Origin: Clostridiales bacterium 38-18
GTDB taxonomy: Bacteria; Bacillota; Clostridia; Peptostreptococcales; Acidaminobacteraceae
Direction: 5' to 3'
Assembly (NCBI GenBank): GCA_001897605.1
Contig: MKTL01000001.1
Location: forward strand, 620,001-684,000
DNA length: 64,000 nucleotides
Under the pieces are notes generated by a model that saw only the letters and a program-made list of their open reading frames with translations, made no database searches and was not told the origin of the DNA. Below, piece by piece: positions 29,166-36,015 of this stretch; within the stretch, counting starts at the first letter, position 1; each line of letters begins with the position of its first letter. Both the position numbers and the translations under genes were made by a program.

Positions 29166-30266
29166 TTATTCAAATTTATCGTAGTAGATGTGTTCCTCTG
29201 GCATTCCTTTGGCTCCAAGAATCGGGATAACGGAGTCGATCATCACTGGACTGCCACAAAGATATGCTTCTGAGTTTGAAGCGTTAGTTAGGTACTTTTC
29301 TAGCATATCGGTAACACGTCCAACCTCACCAGTCCAATTGTCCTTTTCTGAAGGTCGAGACAAGCAAGCGACCAGCTTAAAGTTAGGCATATCTTTTTCA
29401 AGCTCAGCCAGGGTATCCATTTCAAAGAGGTCTTCTGAAGTTCTTGCACCAAAGAAGAAGGTTACCTTACGATCTATTTTATTCGAGCGCATATACTTTA
29501 AAATGGACATTATTGGCGCCATTCCAGTTCCAATAGCAACCATAACCATTTCCCTGTCGTTGTCCTGATAGAAAAAGTCACCATAAGGACCGACGACTGT
29601 AAGCTTCATACTAGGCTTTAGGAAGTTGTGGACATAGGTGGTTGCTTTTCCTTCCTTAACATACCCAATATATAGTTCAACCGCTTTTGTATCAACCGGT
29701 GAGGAAGCAATCGAATAAGCGCGATAGACTTCTTCGTCGCTACCCTTATATTTTGGCGCTAATATCTGAACATATTGACCTGCTTTAAAAGTGATCTCTT
29801 CTGCTTCAGGAAGTCCAAGTCTTAAATGTTTGATGGTTGGCGTGACATCCTTTATGAATTCAACATGATAATCATATTGCTTAACACTAAATAATTCTTC
29901 AGGAATTTGAATTTGCATGTCATTTCTAACCTTACATTGACAGGACAGCCTTACGCCTTCTTCTCTTTCCTTAGGGGTAACATACCCTAATTCAGTGGCG
30001 AGAATTTCACCACCGCCTTCAGTAACTGTAACCTTACAGTAGCCACAGCTACCTTTGCCACCACATGCAGACGGAATGAAGATCTTTTGTTCAATCAATG
30101 CAGAAAGCAAAGTGTCGCCACCCTCTACAGTCAATTCCTTAGATTTGTTAATTACAATCTTTTTTTCACCATAGTTGGCAATGGTTTTATTCGCAATTGA
30201 TAATAACAACGCGAGGAGTCCAGTTATGCCACTTATGGTTAAGACCGTTACACCAATCGTTTCCAT
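29166..30266 (-). CDS. nqrF: Na+-translocating reductase, NqrF-type NADH dehydrogenase subunit
   Basis: Subunit of 366 residues, somewhat shorter than usual NqrF (about 405). Residue order: an N-terminal membrane anchor (5-27), a plant-type [2Fe-2S] ferredoxin domain (35-125) with ligands in CGGKGSCGYC and a fourth cysteine in SCQC, an FAD domain (130-235) with YRAYSIASSP, and an NADH domain (240-366) with GTGMAPIMSIL and a C-terminal aromatic end. It passes electrons from NADH into the membrane core. It is the last gene of the operon, nine bases after nqrE. Its presence distinguishes this operon from a standard Rnf cluster. Confidence 0.9.
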   Translation of the reverse strand: METIGVTVLTISGITGLLALLLSIANKTIANYGEKKIVINKSKELTVEGGDTLLSALIEQKIFIPSACGGKGSCGYCKVTVTEGGGEILATELGYVTPKEREEGVRLSCQCKVRNDMQIQIPEELFSVKQYDYHVEFIKDVTPTIKHLRLGLPEAEEITFKAGQYVQILAPKYKGSDEEVYRAYSIASSPVDTKAVELYIGYVKEGKATTYVHNFLKPSMKLTVVGPYGDFFYQDNDREMVMVAIGTGMAPIMSILKYMRSNKIDRKVTFFFGARTSEDLFEMDTLAELEKDMPNFKLVACLSRPSEKDNWTGEVGRVTDMLEKYLTNASNSEAYLCGSPVMIDSVIPILGAKGMPEEHIYYDKFE

Positions 30267-30275
30267 AATTGCCTC

Positions 30276-30866
30276 CTATTGAATTTGTACGATACCTGAA
30301 AATCCCAAAAATGCTAGTGCCATTATTCCAGTTATGATAAGTGTAATACCTGCGCCTTCAAGGCCTTTAGGGATTTTAGCACCCATAATTTTCTTGCGAA
30401 TGCCTGCCATAGCAACGATGGCAAGGGTCCAACCAAGTCCAGAGCCTACGCCAAAAGCGAACGACTGAATCAAGTTGTATTCTCTGATGATCATAAACAA
30501 TGAAACCCCTAGAATCGCGCAGTTAACTGTAATTAGAGGAAGAAAGATGCCCAAGGAGTAATATAAGGATTCAAAGTATCTTTCGATAATCATTTCGACC
30601 AGTTGTACAAAAGCTGCAATAACAATAATGAAAACAATAAATCTTAAATATTCAAGTCCAAGTGGGACCAAGATTGTGTAATAAACAATGTAGTTTAATA
30701 CTGAAGTCGTAGCAAGTACAAAGGTAACCGCCTGACCCAAGCTAAGTGAAGTCTTAATTTCGCTTGATACCGCTATAAATGAACACATACCAAGGAAGTT
30801 AGATAAAATCATGTTGTTTGTAAATATGGATGCAAAAAAGATAACGAGTGGATGGATTTCAATCAT
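30276..30866 (-). CDS. nqrE: Na+-translocating reductase, NqrE/RnfA-type membrane subunit
   Basis: Six-helix membrane protein of 196 residues. The two half-membrane cysteines that ligate an intramembrane [2Fe-2S] cluster with NqrD are present, in LGMCSFIAVS near residue 28 and TVNCAILGVS near residue 113. The sequence LGLEYLRFIVFIIVIAAFVQLVEM is typical. NqrE and NqrD are inverted-topology homologues. The start overlaps the nqrD stop by four bases. Confidence 0.9.
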   Translation of the reverse strand: MIEIHPLVIFFASIFTNNMILSNFLGMCSFIAVSSEIKTSLSLGQAVTFVLATTSVLNYIVYYTILVPLGLEYLRFIVFIIVIAAFVQLVEMIIERYFESLYYSLGIFLPLITVNCAILGVSLFMIIREYNLIQSFAFGVGSGLGWTLAIVAMAGIRKKIMGAKIPKGLEGAGITLIITGIMALAFLGFSGIVQIQ

Positions 30867-31483
30867 GCTTTAGCACCTCCTTTTTGTTCTTCTTCTTTAG
30901 GGAAAAGTCTAGCGGTTACCCAAATGACGATACCAATCATAAAGAATGCACCAGGAGGCATAATCATTAGTGTCCAATTGACCCAGCTTTCAGGCATGAT
31001 TTGAATTCCGAAAAGGGTCCCAAATCCAAGGAGCTCTCTGACAAATGCAACTGACATAAGTACGAGGGTATAACCTAAACCCATGATTAAGCCATCGAAA
31101 AATGAGATGAATGGCTTGTTGTTTTGAGCAAAAGCTTCAGCGCGTCCCATGATGATACAGTTTGTGATAATCAATCCAACATAAGGGCCAAGCGCCTTTG
31201 ACATATCAGGCATATAGGCTTTTAGAAAGATATCGAGGATAATAACGTATGCTGATATGATTAGGGTTTGCACCATCATACGAATATGCTTTGGCGTGAA
31301 TACTCTAATTAACGAAACTGTAAAGCTTGAAAATGCGGTTACAAACATTAAGCCGACGCCCATAATAAAGGAGTTGGAAAGCAAATTCGTAACAGCAAGT
31401 GAGGAACAAATTCCTAATATTTGTCTAAAAACAGGATTGTCTTTATAAATACCGGCTTTTAATACTCGGATGACTTCCTTCAT
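30863..31483 (-). CDS. nqrD: Na+-translocating reductase, NqrD/RnfE-type membrane subunit
   Basis: Membrane protein of 206 residues. Cysteines in ILGICSSLAVT near residue 26 and ITNCIIMGRAEAFA near residue 108 match the cluster ligands of the family. FDGLIMGLGYTLVLMSVAFVRELLG near residue 127 is a further signature. Length equals that of RnfE/NqrD. It overlaps nqrC and nqrE by four bases each, indicating tight translational coupling. Confidence 0.9.
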   Translation of the reverse strand: MKEVIRVLKAGIYKDNPVFRQILGICSSLAVTNLLSNSFIMGVGLMFVTAFSSFTVSLIRVFTPKHIRMMVQTLIISAYVIILDIFLKAYMPDMSKALGPYVGLIITNCIIMGRAEAFAQNNKPFISFFDGLIMGLGYTLVLMSVAFVRELLGFGTLFGIQIMPESWVNWTLMIMPPGAFFMIGIVIWVTARLFPKEEEQKGGAKA

Positions 31484-32082
31484 AGATTAGCCTCCTTTGC
31501 AAAGCTTAGGGTTTCAGTTACAAATGTATTAACCATTTTTCTTACGGAATCGGTTGTTAAGGTTGCGCCTGTTATGCCGTCTATATTACCACCATCAGCA
31601 GGCTTTAATACGATTGTTTGGGTTTCAGAAAGAGAGATGCCTCTAAATTGCTCTTTAAACCAGCTTTCCTCGATCCGACCACCAAGACCTGGAGTTTCTG
31701 AGTGTGATATGAAGTCAATCCCTAAGATCTTTGTAAAGTCACTATCAAAGGCGATGTAGCCAGTTATGGTGCCCCAAAGTCCAGTACCTGAAAATTTAAA
31801 CGCATAGCCCTTCAGACCATTGGCATCACCATACTCATAATAGGTTTTATCGTTAAAAGATTTTTCATTTATGTTTTCATTAAAAGCTGACTCGACTTCT
31901 GCATCGATCTCAGAAACTGGAAGATCAACCACATACAAGATGGAGCGTTTCACTCGAAGTGCCTCTTGCTTTGCAATTATATCGGAGCTACTTTCATTAA
32001 TAAAAGCGAGAACGGCAGTATAGATAACCGTAATAGCAATCATAAACAATACTGGATAAACAATTTGTTTTTTCTTAGCCAT
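31480..32082 (-). CDS. nqrC: Na+-translocating reductase, NqrC/RnfG-type FMN subunit
   Basis: Protein of 200 residues with one N-terminal membrane helix (8-30) and an extracytoplasmic domain. The covalent FMN site is in DGITGATLTTDSV near residue 172; the second Thr of TGAT is the expected flavinylation site. HSETPGLGGRIEESWFKEQF near residue 137 is typical. Length is that of RnfG rather than the longer NqrC. A flavin transferase (ApbE) is needed for its modification but is not encoded in this window. Confidence 0.9.
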   Translation of the reverse strand: MAKKKQIVYPVLFMIAITVIYTAVLAFINESSSDIIAKQEALRVKRSILYVVDLPVSEIDAEVESAFNENINEKSFNDKTYYEYGDANGLKGYAFKFSGTGLWGTITGYIAFDSDFTKILGIDFISHSETPGLGGRIEESWFKEQFRGISLSETQTIVLKPADGGNIDGITGATLTTDSVRKMVNTFVTETLSFAKEANL

Positions 32083-33055
32083 TGCTTACCTCCTTATTGA
32101 GTTTTGCTTTTTTTGTTTTTTTGATGCTATTGACAGCTTCGTCTAGGATTGGTGCGAAGGTGTTACCAATTAGGATTGCAAACATAATACCACCTGCAAA
32201 CAAGGCAAAGCTTCTAATTATGACGGTTATTATGCCGATTAGTAAGCCGTAAACGATTCTACCTTCAAATGTTTTAGGTGATGAAATTGGATCAGTTGCC
32301 ATAAAAACTGCACCAAATAATAGCCCACCAGAGAACAAGCCATATAATGGGTTTAAAACCTGATCAAAGCCTGCAAAGAAAAAGATGCTGCTCATAGCTA
32401 AGAATCCGAGAATTACAGAAAAAATAGTTTCCTTTGCAGCTGTTTTTGTAATAATTAGGTAGATAGCGGCGAGAATAATTAGGACCGCGCTCGTTTCACC
32501 TATTGATCCTGCAATATTACCAAATATCAGCTTTAAAATAGGAAGCTCATCACCAGATGCTCTGTAGATAAGCATTGGCGTTGATTGTGTGACGGCATCT
32601 ATATTTTCTCCTAAATAGGTAGTAAATCCACCTAAAACACCACTGACGGGCTTTGTCCAGTGAAGCGTTAAAAATTCAGGGAAGTTGACATAGATAAATG
32701 CTCGACCAACCAATGCTGGATTAAAAGGATTCTTACCGAAACCGCCAAATACCATTTTTCCAAAGAGTACCCCAAAAATAATTCCTATGATAGCAATCCA
32801 ATAGGGTGTGCTCGGTGGGAGCGTAAGTGTAAATAAAATATTTGTTACCAAAACTGCCTCTGTTATTTTCTTTGTTGTCTTTCGGACAAAAACCCATTCG
32901 GTTAAACACCCGAAAAAGGAGACGACTAAAAGTAAGGTTAACACTCTAAGTCCAAAGAAATAAATACCAGCTAAAACAAGAGGTATTAATGCGTATACAA
33001 CTTTTCTCATCATCATTTGCTTCATAAATTTTATGTTTTTAAGCGAAAGATTCAA
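32075..33055 (-). CDS. nqrB: Na+-translocating reductase, NqrB/RnfD-type membrane subunit
   Basis: Polytopic membrane protein of 326 residues, closer to RnfD in length than to NqrB (over 400). Signatures are FGGFGKNPFNPALVGRAFIY near residue 105, the flavin site DAVTQSTPMLIY near residue 163 with Thr as probable FMN anchor, and FMATDPISSPKT near residue 260. It is the first gene of the operon; upstream lie 220 bases of AT-rich DNA and then a divergent secreted-protein gene. No nqrA or rnfC precedes it. Alternative name: rnfD. Confidence 0.85.
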   Translation of the reverse strand: MNLSLKNIKFMKQMMMRKVVYALIPLVLAGIYFFGLRVLTLLLVVSFFGCLTEWVFVRKTTKKITEAVLVTNILFTLTLPPSTPYWIAIIGIIFGVLFGKMVFGGFGKNPFNPALVGRAFIYVNFPEFLTLHWTKPVSGVLGGFTTYLGENIDAVTQSTPMLIYRASGDELPILKLIFGNIAGSIGETSAVLIILAAIYLIITKTAAKETIFSVILGFLAMSSIFFFAGFDQVLNPLYGLFSGGLLFGAVFMATDPISSPKTFEGRIVYGLLIGIITVIIRSFALFAGGIMFAILIGNTFAPILDEAVNSIKKTKKAKLNKEVSNG

Positions 33056-33278: not shown

Positions 33279-34991
33279 ATGAAAAAGAATCTAAAACCGA
33301 TGGTTATGATTTTGATGGCTTTGGTGCTAGTTATTTCACAAGTTTCTGTGGTAACGTATGCTGATAACAACGGAAGAGGTAACAGCTTTAAAACTGACAC
33401 CGATAAGTCTCAAATCAAAGAGAAAGATAAGTTCGAATATAGAAATCAAATAACAGAAGAAACAAAAGCAGAGCTTAGAGAAAGACTTAAACTAATGGTT
33501 AGCTTAGGTGATGGTAATTGGTTAGGATTACCAGATGGATTGGCTAAAAAAGGTTACTTGAATTATGGATTATCAAAAAGATATTCAAAAGGGAATTTCC
33601 CTTATGGATTGGCTAAAAGAATTAAAGATTTTAGATATGGTGACTATAATTCAGAGCAGAGCTTGGAAACTTTAAAAGCATTAATATCAAGTGCAAAAAC
33701 TAAACTGTCTTCAGAAAATACAAAAGTATATTTAGCTGGCTCGAAGGAGAAATTGCAGCTCGCAGTTACGAGTGCAGAGGCATTTGTCACAAGCTATAAT
33801 AGCTCAAAATCTTATTCTATTAAAACGGAATATAACAAGCTATTAAGTGCAATAAAACTCTTTGATAACAGTGAAATTGTATCAGGGGCATATCTAGATA
33901 ACCTAAAAGTCTTATACAATGATTTGTTGATCTACAAGGCGAATTATTATTCTAAATTAACGTCGGTAAAGCAAGTTGCTTTGGACAATTTAATTGCTGA
34001 AATCAACAATTATATTAAAGTCTCATCCCCTTCGGTATTAACACTTGGAATCTATAATGATTTATTAGTAAAAGCGGAGGCATATAAAGATCAATTAGAC
34101 CAGTTGAAGGGTTTGATTGACTCGGCAGAGACACTGCTATATGTTAATCCAGAGGTAACGCCTCTCGTGTTTAAGCAGGTAGAGGGCATTTTACCAGGAA
34201 ACTATCTCACTGGATCAAATTTAACCTTGCAGGCGGCGATAACGGCGTCAAAGGCGTTTGTTTCAAGCTACTCTAATCAAACGGTTGCAACTATTGAAAA
34301 TGAATATTATAAGCTTTGGTCCGCAATGGAAGTGTTTAAGAATAATATTGTTTTAGGCCAAGATGATTTAACTACGCTTGCATCAGTAAAAATTGAGCTT
34401 CAAGCCTACTATGAAACCTACTATGTCGAAGGTACAAATCCATTAACGGCATTGGTTGCATTAATCAATGATATACAAACCTATTTAGATAAAACAAATC
34501 CATTAACACAAGCAAAATTAAACTATTTTCTTGATGCGTCAAAGGTCTATATTAAAGATTTATATGATGCAGTCAAACTTGAATTACAGGCTCAAATCAA
34601 CATGTCAAATACACTATTAACAGATGTTAATTACATCAATACTGGTGTAACTAGAACTGACCTACAAGCAAAAGTTACCGCTGCAACCCTCTATTTAAAT
34701 GGGACAACCCATAAATACAATGAGTTGAAGACCTATATCAGTGAGCTTGATTCTCTAAACACAGCTTTTATAACCGCTGGTGTTCAGGCATTAATCAATC
34801 AAGCGAACACATTACTAGCAGACGGTAAAACCTATGGTGATACAGAACGTACAGCATTAGCTCTTAAAGTAACGACAGTGCAGGCTTATTTAAGTGGTGG
34901 CAGTGTTCAAGTTGCTCAGCTAAAAACGTATGTCGTAGAGCTCAATACGGCCATCAAGGCATTTGTTGACTCTGAAGTCGTTCAACCATAG
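33279..34991 (+). CDS. Secreted protein with FIVAR-like helical repeats
   Basis: Protein of 570 residues. A signal peptide (1-29, cut after VTYA) precedes a basic linker with repeated GLAKK/GLSKR/GLAKR motifs (residues 82-112). From about residue 125 to the end are several helical units of about 70-80 residues of the form L-x-A-x(3)-A-x(3)-L ... Y-x-x-L-x-x-A-I-x-F, similar to FIVAR repeats of Gram-positive surface proteins. No LPXTG, SLH or transmembrane anchor is visible, so it is probably released or held by charge. Divergent from the nqr operon. Function is unknown. Confidence 0.6.
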   Translation: MKKNLKPMVMILMALVLVISQVSVVTYADNNGRGNSFKTDTDKSQIKEKDKFEYRNQITEETKAELRERLKLMVSLGDGNWLGLPDGLAKKGYLNYGLSKRYSKGNFPYGLAKRIKDFRYGDYNSEQSLETLKALISSAKTKLSSENTKVYLAGSKEKLQLAVTSAEAFVTSYNSSKSYSIKTEYNKLLSAIKLFDNSEIVSGAYLDNLKVLYNDLLIYKANYYSKLTSVKQVALDNLIAEINNYIKVSSPSVLTLGIYNDLLVKAEAYKDQLDQLKGLIDSAETLLYVNPEVTPLVFKQVEGILPGNYLTGSNLTLQAAITASKAFVSSYSNQTVATIENEYYKLWSAMEVFKNNIVLGQDDLTTLASVKIELQAYYETYYVEGTNPLTALVALINDIQTYLDKTNPLTQAKLNYFLDASKVYIKDLYDAVKLELQAQINMSNTLLTDVNYINTGVTRTDLQAKVTAATLYLNGTTHKYNELKTYISELDSLNTAFITAGVQALINQANTLLADGKTYGDTERTALALKVTTVQAYLSGGSVQVAQLKTYVVELNTAIKAFVDSEVVQP

Positions 34992-35188: not shown

Positions 35189-35971
35189 ATGAAGGTTGCA
35201 ATAGTAGGTGCTGGTGCTGGTGGCAGCAAGTTAATCGAATTATTTAACGACATAGATGAGATAGACGTCGTTTCTGTAATCGATAAAAATTTACAATCTC
35301 CAGGTATAGAACTCGCAAGAAAGCATAATATTCATTATTCTACAGAAATCAAAGATATTGATTCTAGAGTGGATATGATTGTTGAAGCGACAGGTAATCA
35401 CAAGGTCTATGAAATGGTCCACTCACTTTTTGGTTCGAATAAGAAAATTATTGAATCAGATGTGGCTCAAATGATGATGTTTATCGTCGATAAACAGATT
35501 GATATGAGGAAAAGACTTAATTTTCAATTAGATGAGATTAATAAAACCAGTTCAAAATTGCATTCGGAGATGAACAAGATCGTTAATATCACTGTAGAAT
35601 TAAATCAGATCAATAAAGATCTAGCTGCTTCGGCAGAGCAGTCGAATCAGTTCATTGAGAAAACTGATGAAATGACAAGAGCAGTTAATAAGATCACGCA
35701 GCAGATTAAAATTCTTGGCTTAAATGCAAATATTGAAGCTGCTAGAGCTGGTGAACATGGTCGTGGCTTCTCAGTCGTCGCAACTGAGGTACAGAAGATG
35801 TCAGACTCTACTAGCGAATTTGCAACGCAAATATCGGATCTGCTGAAGTCGTTAAAGCTAGAAAATGAGAGAATTTCATTAGAAATTAACAAACTAGATG
35901 GAATCTCAGGAAATCAAAAATCGATCACCAATCAAGCAAAAAACATAGTTGATGAGCTGAAAAATATCTAG
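35189..35971 (+). CDS. Soluble chemoreceptor: NAD(P)-binding Rossmann domain fused to MCP signalling domain
   Basis: Protein of 260 residues without any membrane segment. Residues 1-100 look like a dinucleotide-binding fold: VAIVGAGAGGSKLIE with the Gly-rich loop, an acidic residue after strand 2 (VSVIDKN), and a VDMIVEATGNHKV segment like that of aspartate or homoserine dehydrogenases. Residues about 105-260 are an antiparallel coiled coil with the MCP hairpin tip (NANIEAARAGEHGRGFSVVATEV near residues 178-200, read in two parts). It is short for an MCP. It would report on a dinucleotide or a metabolite inside the cell to a CheA/CheW array. The ATG follows AGGGGGTAAAA. Single gene, terminator downstream. 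Confidence 0.82.
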   Translation: MKVAIVGAGAGGSKLIELFNDIDEIDVVSVIDKNLQSPGIELARKHNIHYSTEIKDIDSRVDMIVEATGNHKVYEMVHSLFGSNKKIIESDVAQMMMFIVDKQIDMRKRLNFQLDEINKTSSKLHSEMNKIVNITVELNQINKDLAASAEQSNQFIEKTDEMTRAVNKITQQIKILGLNANIEAARAGEHGRGFSVVATEVQKMSDSTSEFATQISDLLKSLKLENERISLEINKLDGISGNQKSITNQAKNIVDELKNI

Positions 35972-35978
35972 AATTTTG

Positions 35979-36015
35979 AAGGAAAGTGGGCCTCGCAGTC
36001 GCTTTCCTTTTTCTT
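35979..36015 (+). terminator. Terminator after the chemoreceptor gene
   Basis: AAGGAAAG / CTTTCCTT hairpin with a 15-base loop, followed by TTTTC. Confidence 0.7.

Follow-up and report, generated by a model that had tools for sequence, protein, structure and literature searches.

Energy taxis is usually explained by flavin or heme held in PAS or globin domains, and Aer of Escherichia coli is a receptor with a membrane anchor. The receptor described here resembles Aer in its proposed role only, the relay of the cell's redox state to CheA. Aer works with FAD bound in a PAS domain (PMC9668731). Closer in build are YfmS of Bacillus subtilis and a receptor of Thermotoga maritima (3g67), which like our protein are cytoplasmic and have a short hairpin; the rods align, but nothing else does, and the head of our protein instead matches dehydrogenases. 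A Rossmann domain that senses the NAD(H) state and is coupled to an output domain is known from Rex, which has an N-terminal winged-helix DNA-binding half. Rex gives a weak profile match to the bkdR-type relatives of our head domain (E = 0.0078), but the two Rossmann domains resemble each other only remotely, the output here is an MCP, and none of the 23 Pfam matches of our protein at E ≤ 1 is to a DNA-binding family, its Rossmann domain starting at residue 1. The GFO/IDH/MocA enzymes and the CoA-acylating acetaldehyde dehydrogenases share the Rossmann fold and the NAD loop, whereas our protein lacks their catalytic domain; MocA enzymes carry an EKP motif with the catalytic Lys, and residues 88–90 of our protein read I-E-S at that place. 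Finally, the BkdR-type sigma-54 activators of bacilli begin with the same N-terminal module, in the same predicted order of strands and helices, and continue as PAS-PAS-AAA-HTH; our protein lacks the sigma-54 AAA and HTH domains and shares the module only.

The gene lies on the forward strand at 35189–35971 of a 64,000-nucleotide stretch of the genome of Clostridiales bacterium 38-18 (the window), and encodes, from an ATG start, a 260-residue protein with the N terminus MKVAIVGAGAGG. Open reading frame, Pfam and AlphaFold analyses identify it as a soluble chemoreceptor made of a Rossmann half and an MCP half. The initial annotation had described an N-terminal Rossmann domain with a GxGxxG-type loop and a VEATGNHKV block, a short MCP signalling hairpin behind it, no membrane segment and a missing dehydrogenase catalytic half, and each of these observations was confirmed. 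Pfam analysis of the whole protein revealed the GFO_IDH_MocA NAD-binding Rossmann family over residues 1–88 (26.2 bits, cut-off 24) and MCPsignal over residues 156–253 (E = 1.8e-19; 70.7 bits, cut-off 34.6), while residues 1–106 alone, the input module (35189–35506, +), scored 28.6 bits for GFO_IDH_MocA (cut-off 24) and 26.3 bits for DapB_N (cut-off 25.6). The alignment places the dinucleotide loop, GAGAGG, at residues 7–12 (35207–35224, +), and VEATGNHKV corresponds to residues 65–73. No C-terminal catalytic or substrate domain of a dehydrogenase was detected by Pfam at E ≤ 1, and no transmembrane segment was found, the highest 19-residue Kyte-Doolittle mean being 1.13. A neurotoxin chain returned by the PDB search (E = 0.63) was a chance match. 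Upstream of the receptor gene, the promoter scan gave no promoter-like site on the forward strand; it returned 10 promoter-like sites versus 5.5 expected (sd 2.1). An inverted repeat, AAGGAAAG/CTTTCCTT, with a 15-nt loop and a T-rich tail lies 3' of the gene (35979–36009, +) and is a possible terminator, the terminator scan itself reporting none.

An AlphaFold model of the protein, built with an alignment of 18 rows, has a mean pLDDT of 89.8 and a pTM of only 0.47, so that the placement of the head relative to the rod is unsure. The Rossmann fold, whose absence from a model would have counted against the initial annotation, is present, with strands at residues 2–6, 26–31, 49–51, 63–66 and 86–88 and helices between them. 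Superposition of the head on the NAD-bound dehydrogenase GenD2 gave a Z score of 13.2 (91 residues, rmsd 1.8), and solved structures of acylating acetaldehyde dehydrogenases were also matched. After strand 5, a helix begins at residue 90 and in the model runs unbroken into the MCP rod (its start, 35456–35506, +), spanning residues 90–259 and remaining unbroken at the tip by DSSP. Residues 107–260 form the MCP antiparallel hairpin (35507–35968, +), with the signalling tip, ILGLNANIEAARAGEHGRGFSVVATEVQ, at residues 175–202 (35711–35794, +). Residues 104–260 of the model superpose on residues 115–271 of YfmS with a Z score of 13.5 (rmsd 0.9 over 157 residues), a value of about 13 being within reach of long helices by their arrangement alone, and the rod also matches the T. 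maritima soluble chemoreceptor (3g67). Unrelated long coiled coils (Smc) score Z 11–12 on the rod, 1–2 Z units below the chemoreceptors, and the MCP identity of the rod is therefore taken from the sequence match and not from Z.

A search for the same pair of domains was proposed in the initial annotation. The Rossmann half was searched in 61 genomes and found in 19 of them at E ≤ 1e-4 (20 matches, the window's own included). Eighteen of the 20 matches, again with that of the window, were read over their whole length and can be aligned in the Rossmann half as well as in the MCP half (alignment A1), which rules out a chance fusion or a misassembly. The two left out are a fragment in genome G040, with an internal stop in the match, and the second gene of genome G037, which escaped the motif filter. 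Invariant among the 18 members are G7, G9, G11, G12, D32, A43, T68, G69, V73, I87, S90 and A93, together with the MCP tip ILGxNAxIEAARAGE. Pfam has no dedicated family for the module: at E ≤ 0.001 the 18 members matched DapB_N (15), GFO_IDH_MocA (11), NAD_binding_3 (9) and Semialdhyde_dh (9), and whereas the window domain passes two curated cut-offs (GFO_IDH_MocA and DapB_N), other scanned members often pass none. Such scattered dehydrogenase-type matches, often below cut-off, could be the reason why the module has escaped notice.

The initial annotation had treated the fusion as a single oddity, and in this it was too narrow, since the module proved widespread. At 1e-10, a profile made from A1 (106 residues) found matches in 109 of 398 genomes sampled from the window's phylum; in a second phylum, that of genome G476 and probably Pseudomonadota, 91 of 299 genomes matched. 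In the phylum to which an Anaerolineales record belongs, 151 genomes gave no match at 1e-10, in a search run without a positive control. Likewise, the 35 loci L142–L176 themselves contained no A1 match at 1e-5, and of 25 genomes reached via 26 of these loci two matched at 1e-6, both with stand-alone modules. Genes were then read individually. From the window's phylum these were 112 genes with 102 distinct modules, comprising 49 partly picked for differing length, the 18 of A1 and 45 named loci, which are among the matches listed in the genome scan and are not a census; the titles of the 45 we take to be Bacillota groups throughout. From the second phylum, 26 distinct genes were read, again partly picked by length. 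The suspicion that the A1 profile merely catches dehydrogenases was dismissed, since a catalytic half was present in the read sequence of none of 49 and none of 26 genes.

Among the 128 distinct modules read, 124 are fused in front of a signalling output, three stand alone and one is a fragment. Five types of output were found, namely soluble MCPs, sigma-54 activators, histidine kinases, diguanylate cyclases and one HD-GYP protein. The 102 modules, with outputs called from sequence motifs and lengths and a few corrected by hand, comprise 75 MCPs, 25 sigma-54 activators, one HD-GYP protein and one unassigned frame of 140 residues. The MCPs divide into 61 short soluble forms, five very short forms and nine with an extra region of about 230 residues between head and rod; judged by length, the sigma-54 activators have one PAS-sized insert in 11 cases (one cut by a contig end), two in 13 and none in one. 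The HD-GYP member, PAS-GAF-PAS-HD-GYP in its make-up, has a divergent module in front (L083:4737–6869, +). The 26 genes of the second phylum encode 14 GGDEF proteins, five histidine kinases, four very short MCPs and three stand-alone modules; one of the kinases, followed to its C terminus, has receivers and a GGDEF domain as well. Pfam analysis of nine representatives agrees with the assignment of outputs. The nine MCPs with the additional region are L077, L078, L079, L080, L082, L096, L113, L115 and L118, and in L077 this region gave no firm Pfam match. The stand-alone modules, of about 130 residues and with no fused output, are L177, L178 and L197, in the other phylum. On the module tree, which rests on few columns and has many open forks, eight output changes account for seven groups (minimum six), and four changes were counted among MCP, sigma-54 and HD-GYP forms. 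Frequent swapping of outputs is not supported by this tree, on which outputs cluster.

Across this range the loop is strongly conserved. G7 and G9 are present in all 102 modules, G11 in 99 and G12 in 101; residue 32 (35282–35284, +), at the end of strand 2, is D in 100 and E in two; and after strand 4 (35390–35395, +) T68 occurs in 102 and G69 in 101. The corresponding counts in the 26 modules of the second phylum are 26 (G7), 25 (G9), 20 (G11), 24 (G12), 26 (D32), 23 (T68) and 22 (G69). Position 90 is variable, with S in 58, A in 24 and G in 18 of the 102 and G in 17 of the other 26, and position 89 of the 102 is D in 53, E in 22 and P in nine. The module is defined by GxGxGG, D or E after strand 2, TG after strand 4, an end after strand 5 and a place N-terminal to the output, all of which are found in the window protein. 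These counts bear on the idea that the Rossmann domain senses no ligand and serves the rod as a head for dimerisation or localisation, for which the loss of the catalytic half, the existence of a stand-alone form of about 130 residues and the variability of the sequence outside the loop could be cited. A mere scaffold would need neither the loop glycines nor D32, yet both are kept over two phyla and five output types, and we consider a scaffold role improbable.

Which dinucleotide the module would bind is suggested by the same residues. In a Rossmann fold, an acidic residue after strand 2 usually indicates a preference for NAD(H) over NADP(H), and D32 in the module sequence thus favours NAD(H). 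NADP(H), FAD, CoA and further nucleotides are likewise ligands of GxGxxG folds, and the module resembles enzymes weakly, with its matches scattered across several Pfam families. The solved sequences nearest to the module profile are NAD-dependent acylating acetaldehyde dehydrogenases (E = 1.3e-5). These are CoA-acylating enzymes, which speaks for an alternative in which the module senses some other ligand: an acyl-CoA or CoA, a nucleotide sugar, or a metabolite beside a permanently held NAD, which would make the receptor one for metabolite taxis and not redox taxis. Weak matches to CoA_binding and PglD_N point the same way, as do the acyl-CoA genes ptb and buk near bkdR-type members. Against this stand the NAD-type signature of the module, made up of GxGxxG and the acidic side chain that follows strand 2, and the gene contexts of the activator forms.

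The sigma-54 form of two-PAS length is represented by 14 loci with 13 distinct modules, and Pfam identified two PAS stretches in L136, the one member of this length that was scanned. Near the 14 loci lie genes for a Glu/Leu-type dehydrogenase (13 loci), Spo0A (11), phosphate butyryltransferase (10) and butyrate kinase (9); NCBIfam analysis of representatives placed ptb, buk and Spo0A above cut-off and the dehydrogenase, scanned in two, below it. A module gene near ptb, the dehydrogenase and buk is an arrangement that we take to be that of bkdR in B. subtilis. BkdR of Bacillus thuringiensis controls the adjoining isoleucine/valine operon and is described with two PAS domains, no Rossmann domain being mentioned in the available text of these papers (PMC4428206, PMC3734008). 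The modelled head of the bkdR-type protein of Metabacillus (L136; pLDDT 91.9) shows strands and helices in the same order as the window protein and matches mostly NAD(P) enzymes in structure comparison. Activators of one-PAS length lie directly upstream of sdhCAB-type genes in L116, L117, L120 and L132, which carry Desulfosporosinus titles, and upstream of a fumarate hydratase subunit gene in one Pelotomaculum locus; in a scan of one of the sdh loci, SdhA and SdhB scored above cut-off and SdhC just below it (95.9 against 96). Because the activator forms adjoin at least two pathways (ptb/buk, and sdh with fumarate hydratase), a common cofactor fits better than any one metabolite, and a ligand other than NAD(H) appears unlikely, although of the alternatives it is the one to be taken most seriously.

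The neighbourhood of the window gene offers a different candidate for the origin of the signal. At 29166–33055 (−), nqrF, nqrE/rnfA, nqrD/rnfE, nqrC/rnfG and nqrB/rnfD follow in a row, and none of these five scanned genes is nqrA, rnfB or rnfC; on its gene content the set is Nqr-like with an NqrF input. Between this operon and the receptor gene lies a single gene (33279–34991, +) for a 570-residue protein with a signal-peptide-like start by eye, which matched no NCBIfam family at 1e-5; three relatives have a homologue of it close to their receptor gene. Over 19 loci (the window and 18 regions), an nqr-type operon lies near the module gene in nine and a hemerythrin gene in five, and an aldo/keto reductase-like gene adjoins it in six. 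The domain might therefore report on a protein partner, such as a nearby redox enzyme (Nqr or the aldo/keto reductase), but all nine nqr-type loci belong to one family of relatives and other lineages have other neighbours; for the MCP class, Syntrophomonadaceae-type loci have spmB/rluB-type genes (named by eye). Moreover, over the 61 genomes the co-occurrence of NqrF with the module is not beyond chance (13/19 with the module vs 22/42 without, p = 0.28). Since NqrF does not track the module, the proximity of nqr genes is taken as synteny within one family, NAD sensing by way of the neighbouring nqr operon was rejected, and a protein partner as the source of the signal is very improbable.

CheA behaves differently from NqrF. 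It is encoded in all 19 genomes with the module (G040 included) vs 23 of 42 without it (42/61 overall; Fisher p = 2e-4, uncorrected for kinship), and the window genome itself gave two CheA matches over cut-off. FliG is present in all 19 module genomes and in 46 of the 61. Because CheA co-occurs with the module and NqrF does not, the link of the module to chemotaxis is supported and that to Nqr is not. The arm of the window protein that follows the tip glutamate E183 is 77 residues long; of seven further MCP frames that were read in the same genome, five have an arm of 161–162 residues. A methylation consensus has no match in the window protein and is present in 11 of 64 short family members. 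Given the short C-arm and the lack of a consensus match, the window receptor probably works without adaptation by methylation. The same genome encodes a second short MCP on contig C16 (L002, a 281-residue frame), the N-terminal part of which is different by eye.

Taken as a whole, the window gene probably encodes a cytoplasmic chemoreceptor whose free-standing Rossmann input would bind a dinucleotide, most likely NAD(H), and which belongs to a large set of proteins with this N-terminal module. In the mechanism we propose, the GxGxGG loop would hold the ligand, D32 would take its adenosine ribose, and the nicotinamide end would come near the turns after strand 4 (TG) and strand 5 (S90/A93). A switch between NAD+ and NADH, or between an occupied and an empty site, may then shift the helix that starts at residue 90, and this shift would pass into the N-arm of the MCP rod and on to the CheA/CheW tip with no HAMP or membrane step; no HAMP domain would be needed, as the helix runs directly into the rod. 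The ligand, the redox readout, the movement of the helix and the direction of the CheA response are all inferred. Both models, those of the window protein and the bkdR-type head, predict a helix behind strand 5, and for the other classes it was judged from sequence. The next Pfam domain begins 106–131 residues from the module start in 11 of 14 fused representatives (L045, L064, L081, L091, L116, L123, L136, L181, L189, L196 and L203), whereas in L077, L083 and L190 a longer stretch without a firm domain follows the module; direct transmission through the helix does not cover long-stretch members such as L077 and L190. The initial annotation was thus correct in what it observed and plausible, if too narrow, in its interpretation.

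No account of this Rossmann input domain was found in the accessible text of the open-licence literature searched. Term searches of the available main text of a review of cyclic di-GMP sensing (PMC8846402) and of one on flavin redox sensing (PMC12540587) did not return the word "Rossmann", and the available part of a survey of sigma-54 activators in Clostridiales lists PAS, GAF, ACT, CBS, V4R and other domains and no Rossmann domain (PMC6615313). From its sequence, the window protein is a soluble chemoreceptor whose input module, probably a binder of NAD(H), is found again in other signalling proteins and is uncatalogued as far as searched. There is about an even chance that the module is a general-purpose pyridine-nucleotide input domain, used in the manner of PAS and GAF domains across chemotaxis, sigma-54, phosphorelay and cyclic di-GMP outputs. 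A protein that reads NAD(H) directly at the chemotaxis array would tie motility to a central redox currency, and a general input domain of this kind, if real, would put motility, gene expression and lifestyle under the influence of a single pool of cofactor. Since the module also stands at the front of bkdR-type activators, diguanylate cyclases and histidine kinases, the outcome of a single binding assay would bear on many regulators that lack an explanation, and B. subtilis, with its BkdR, is a ready genetic system for the module.
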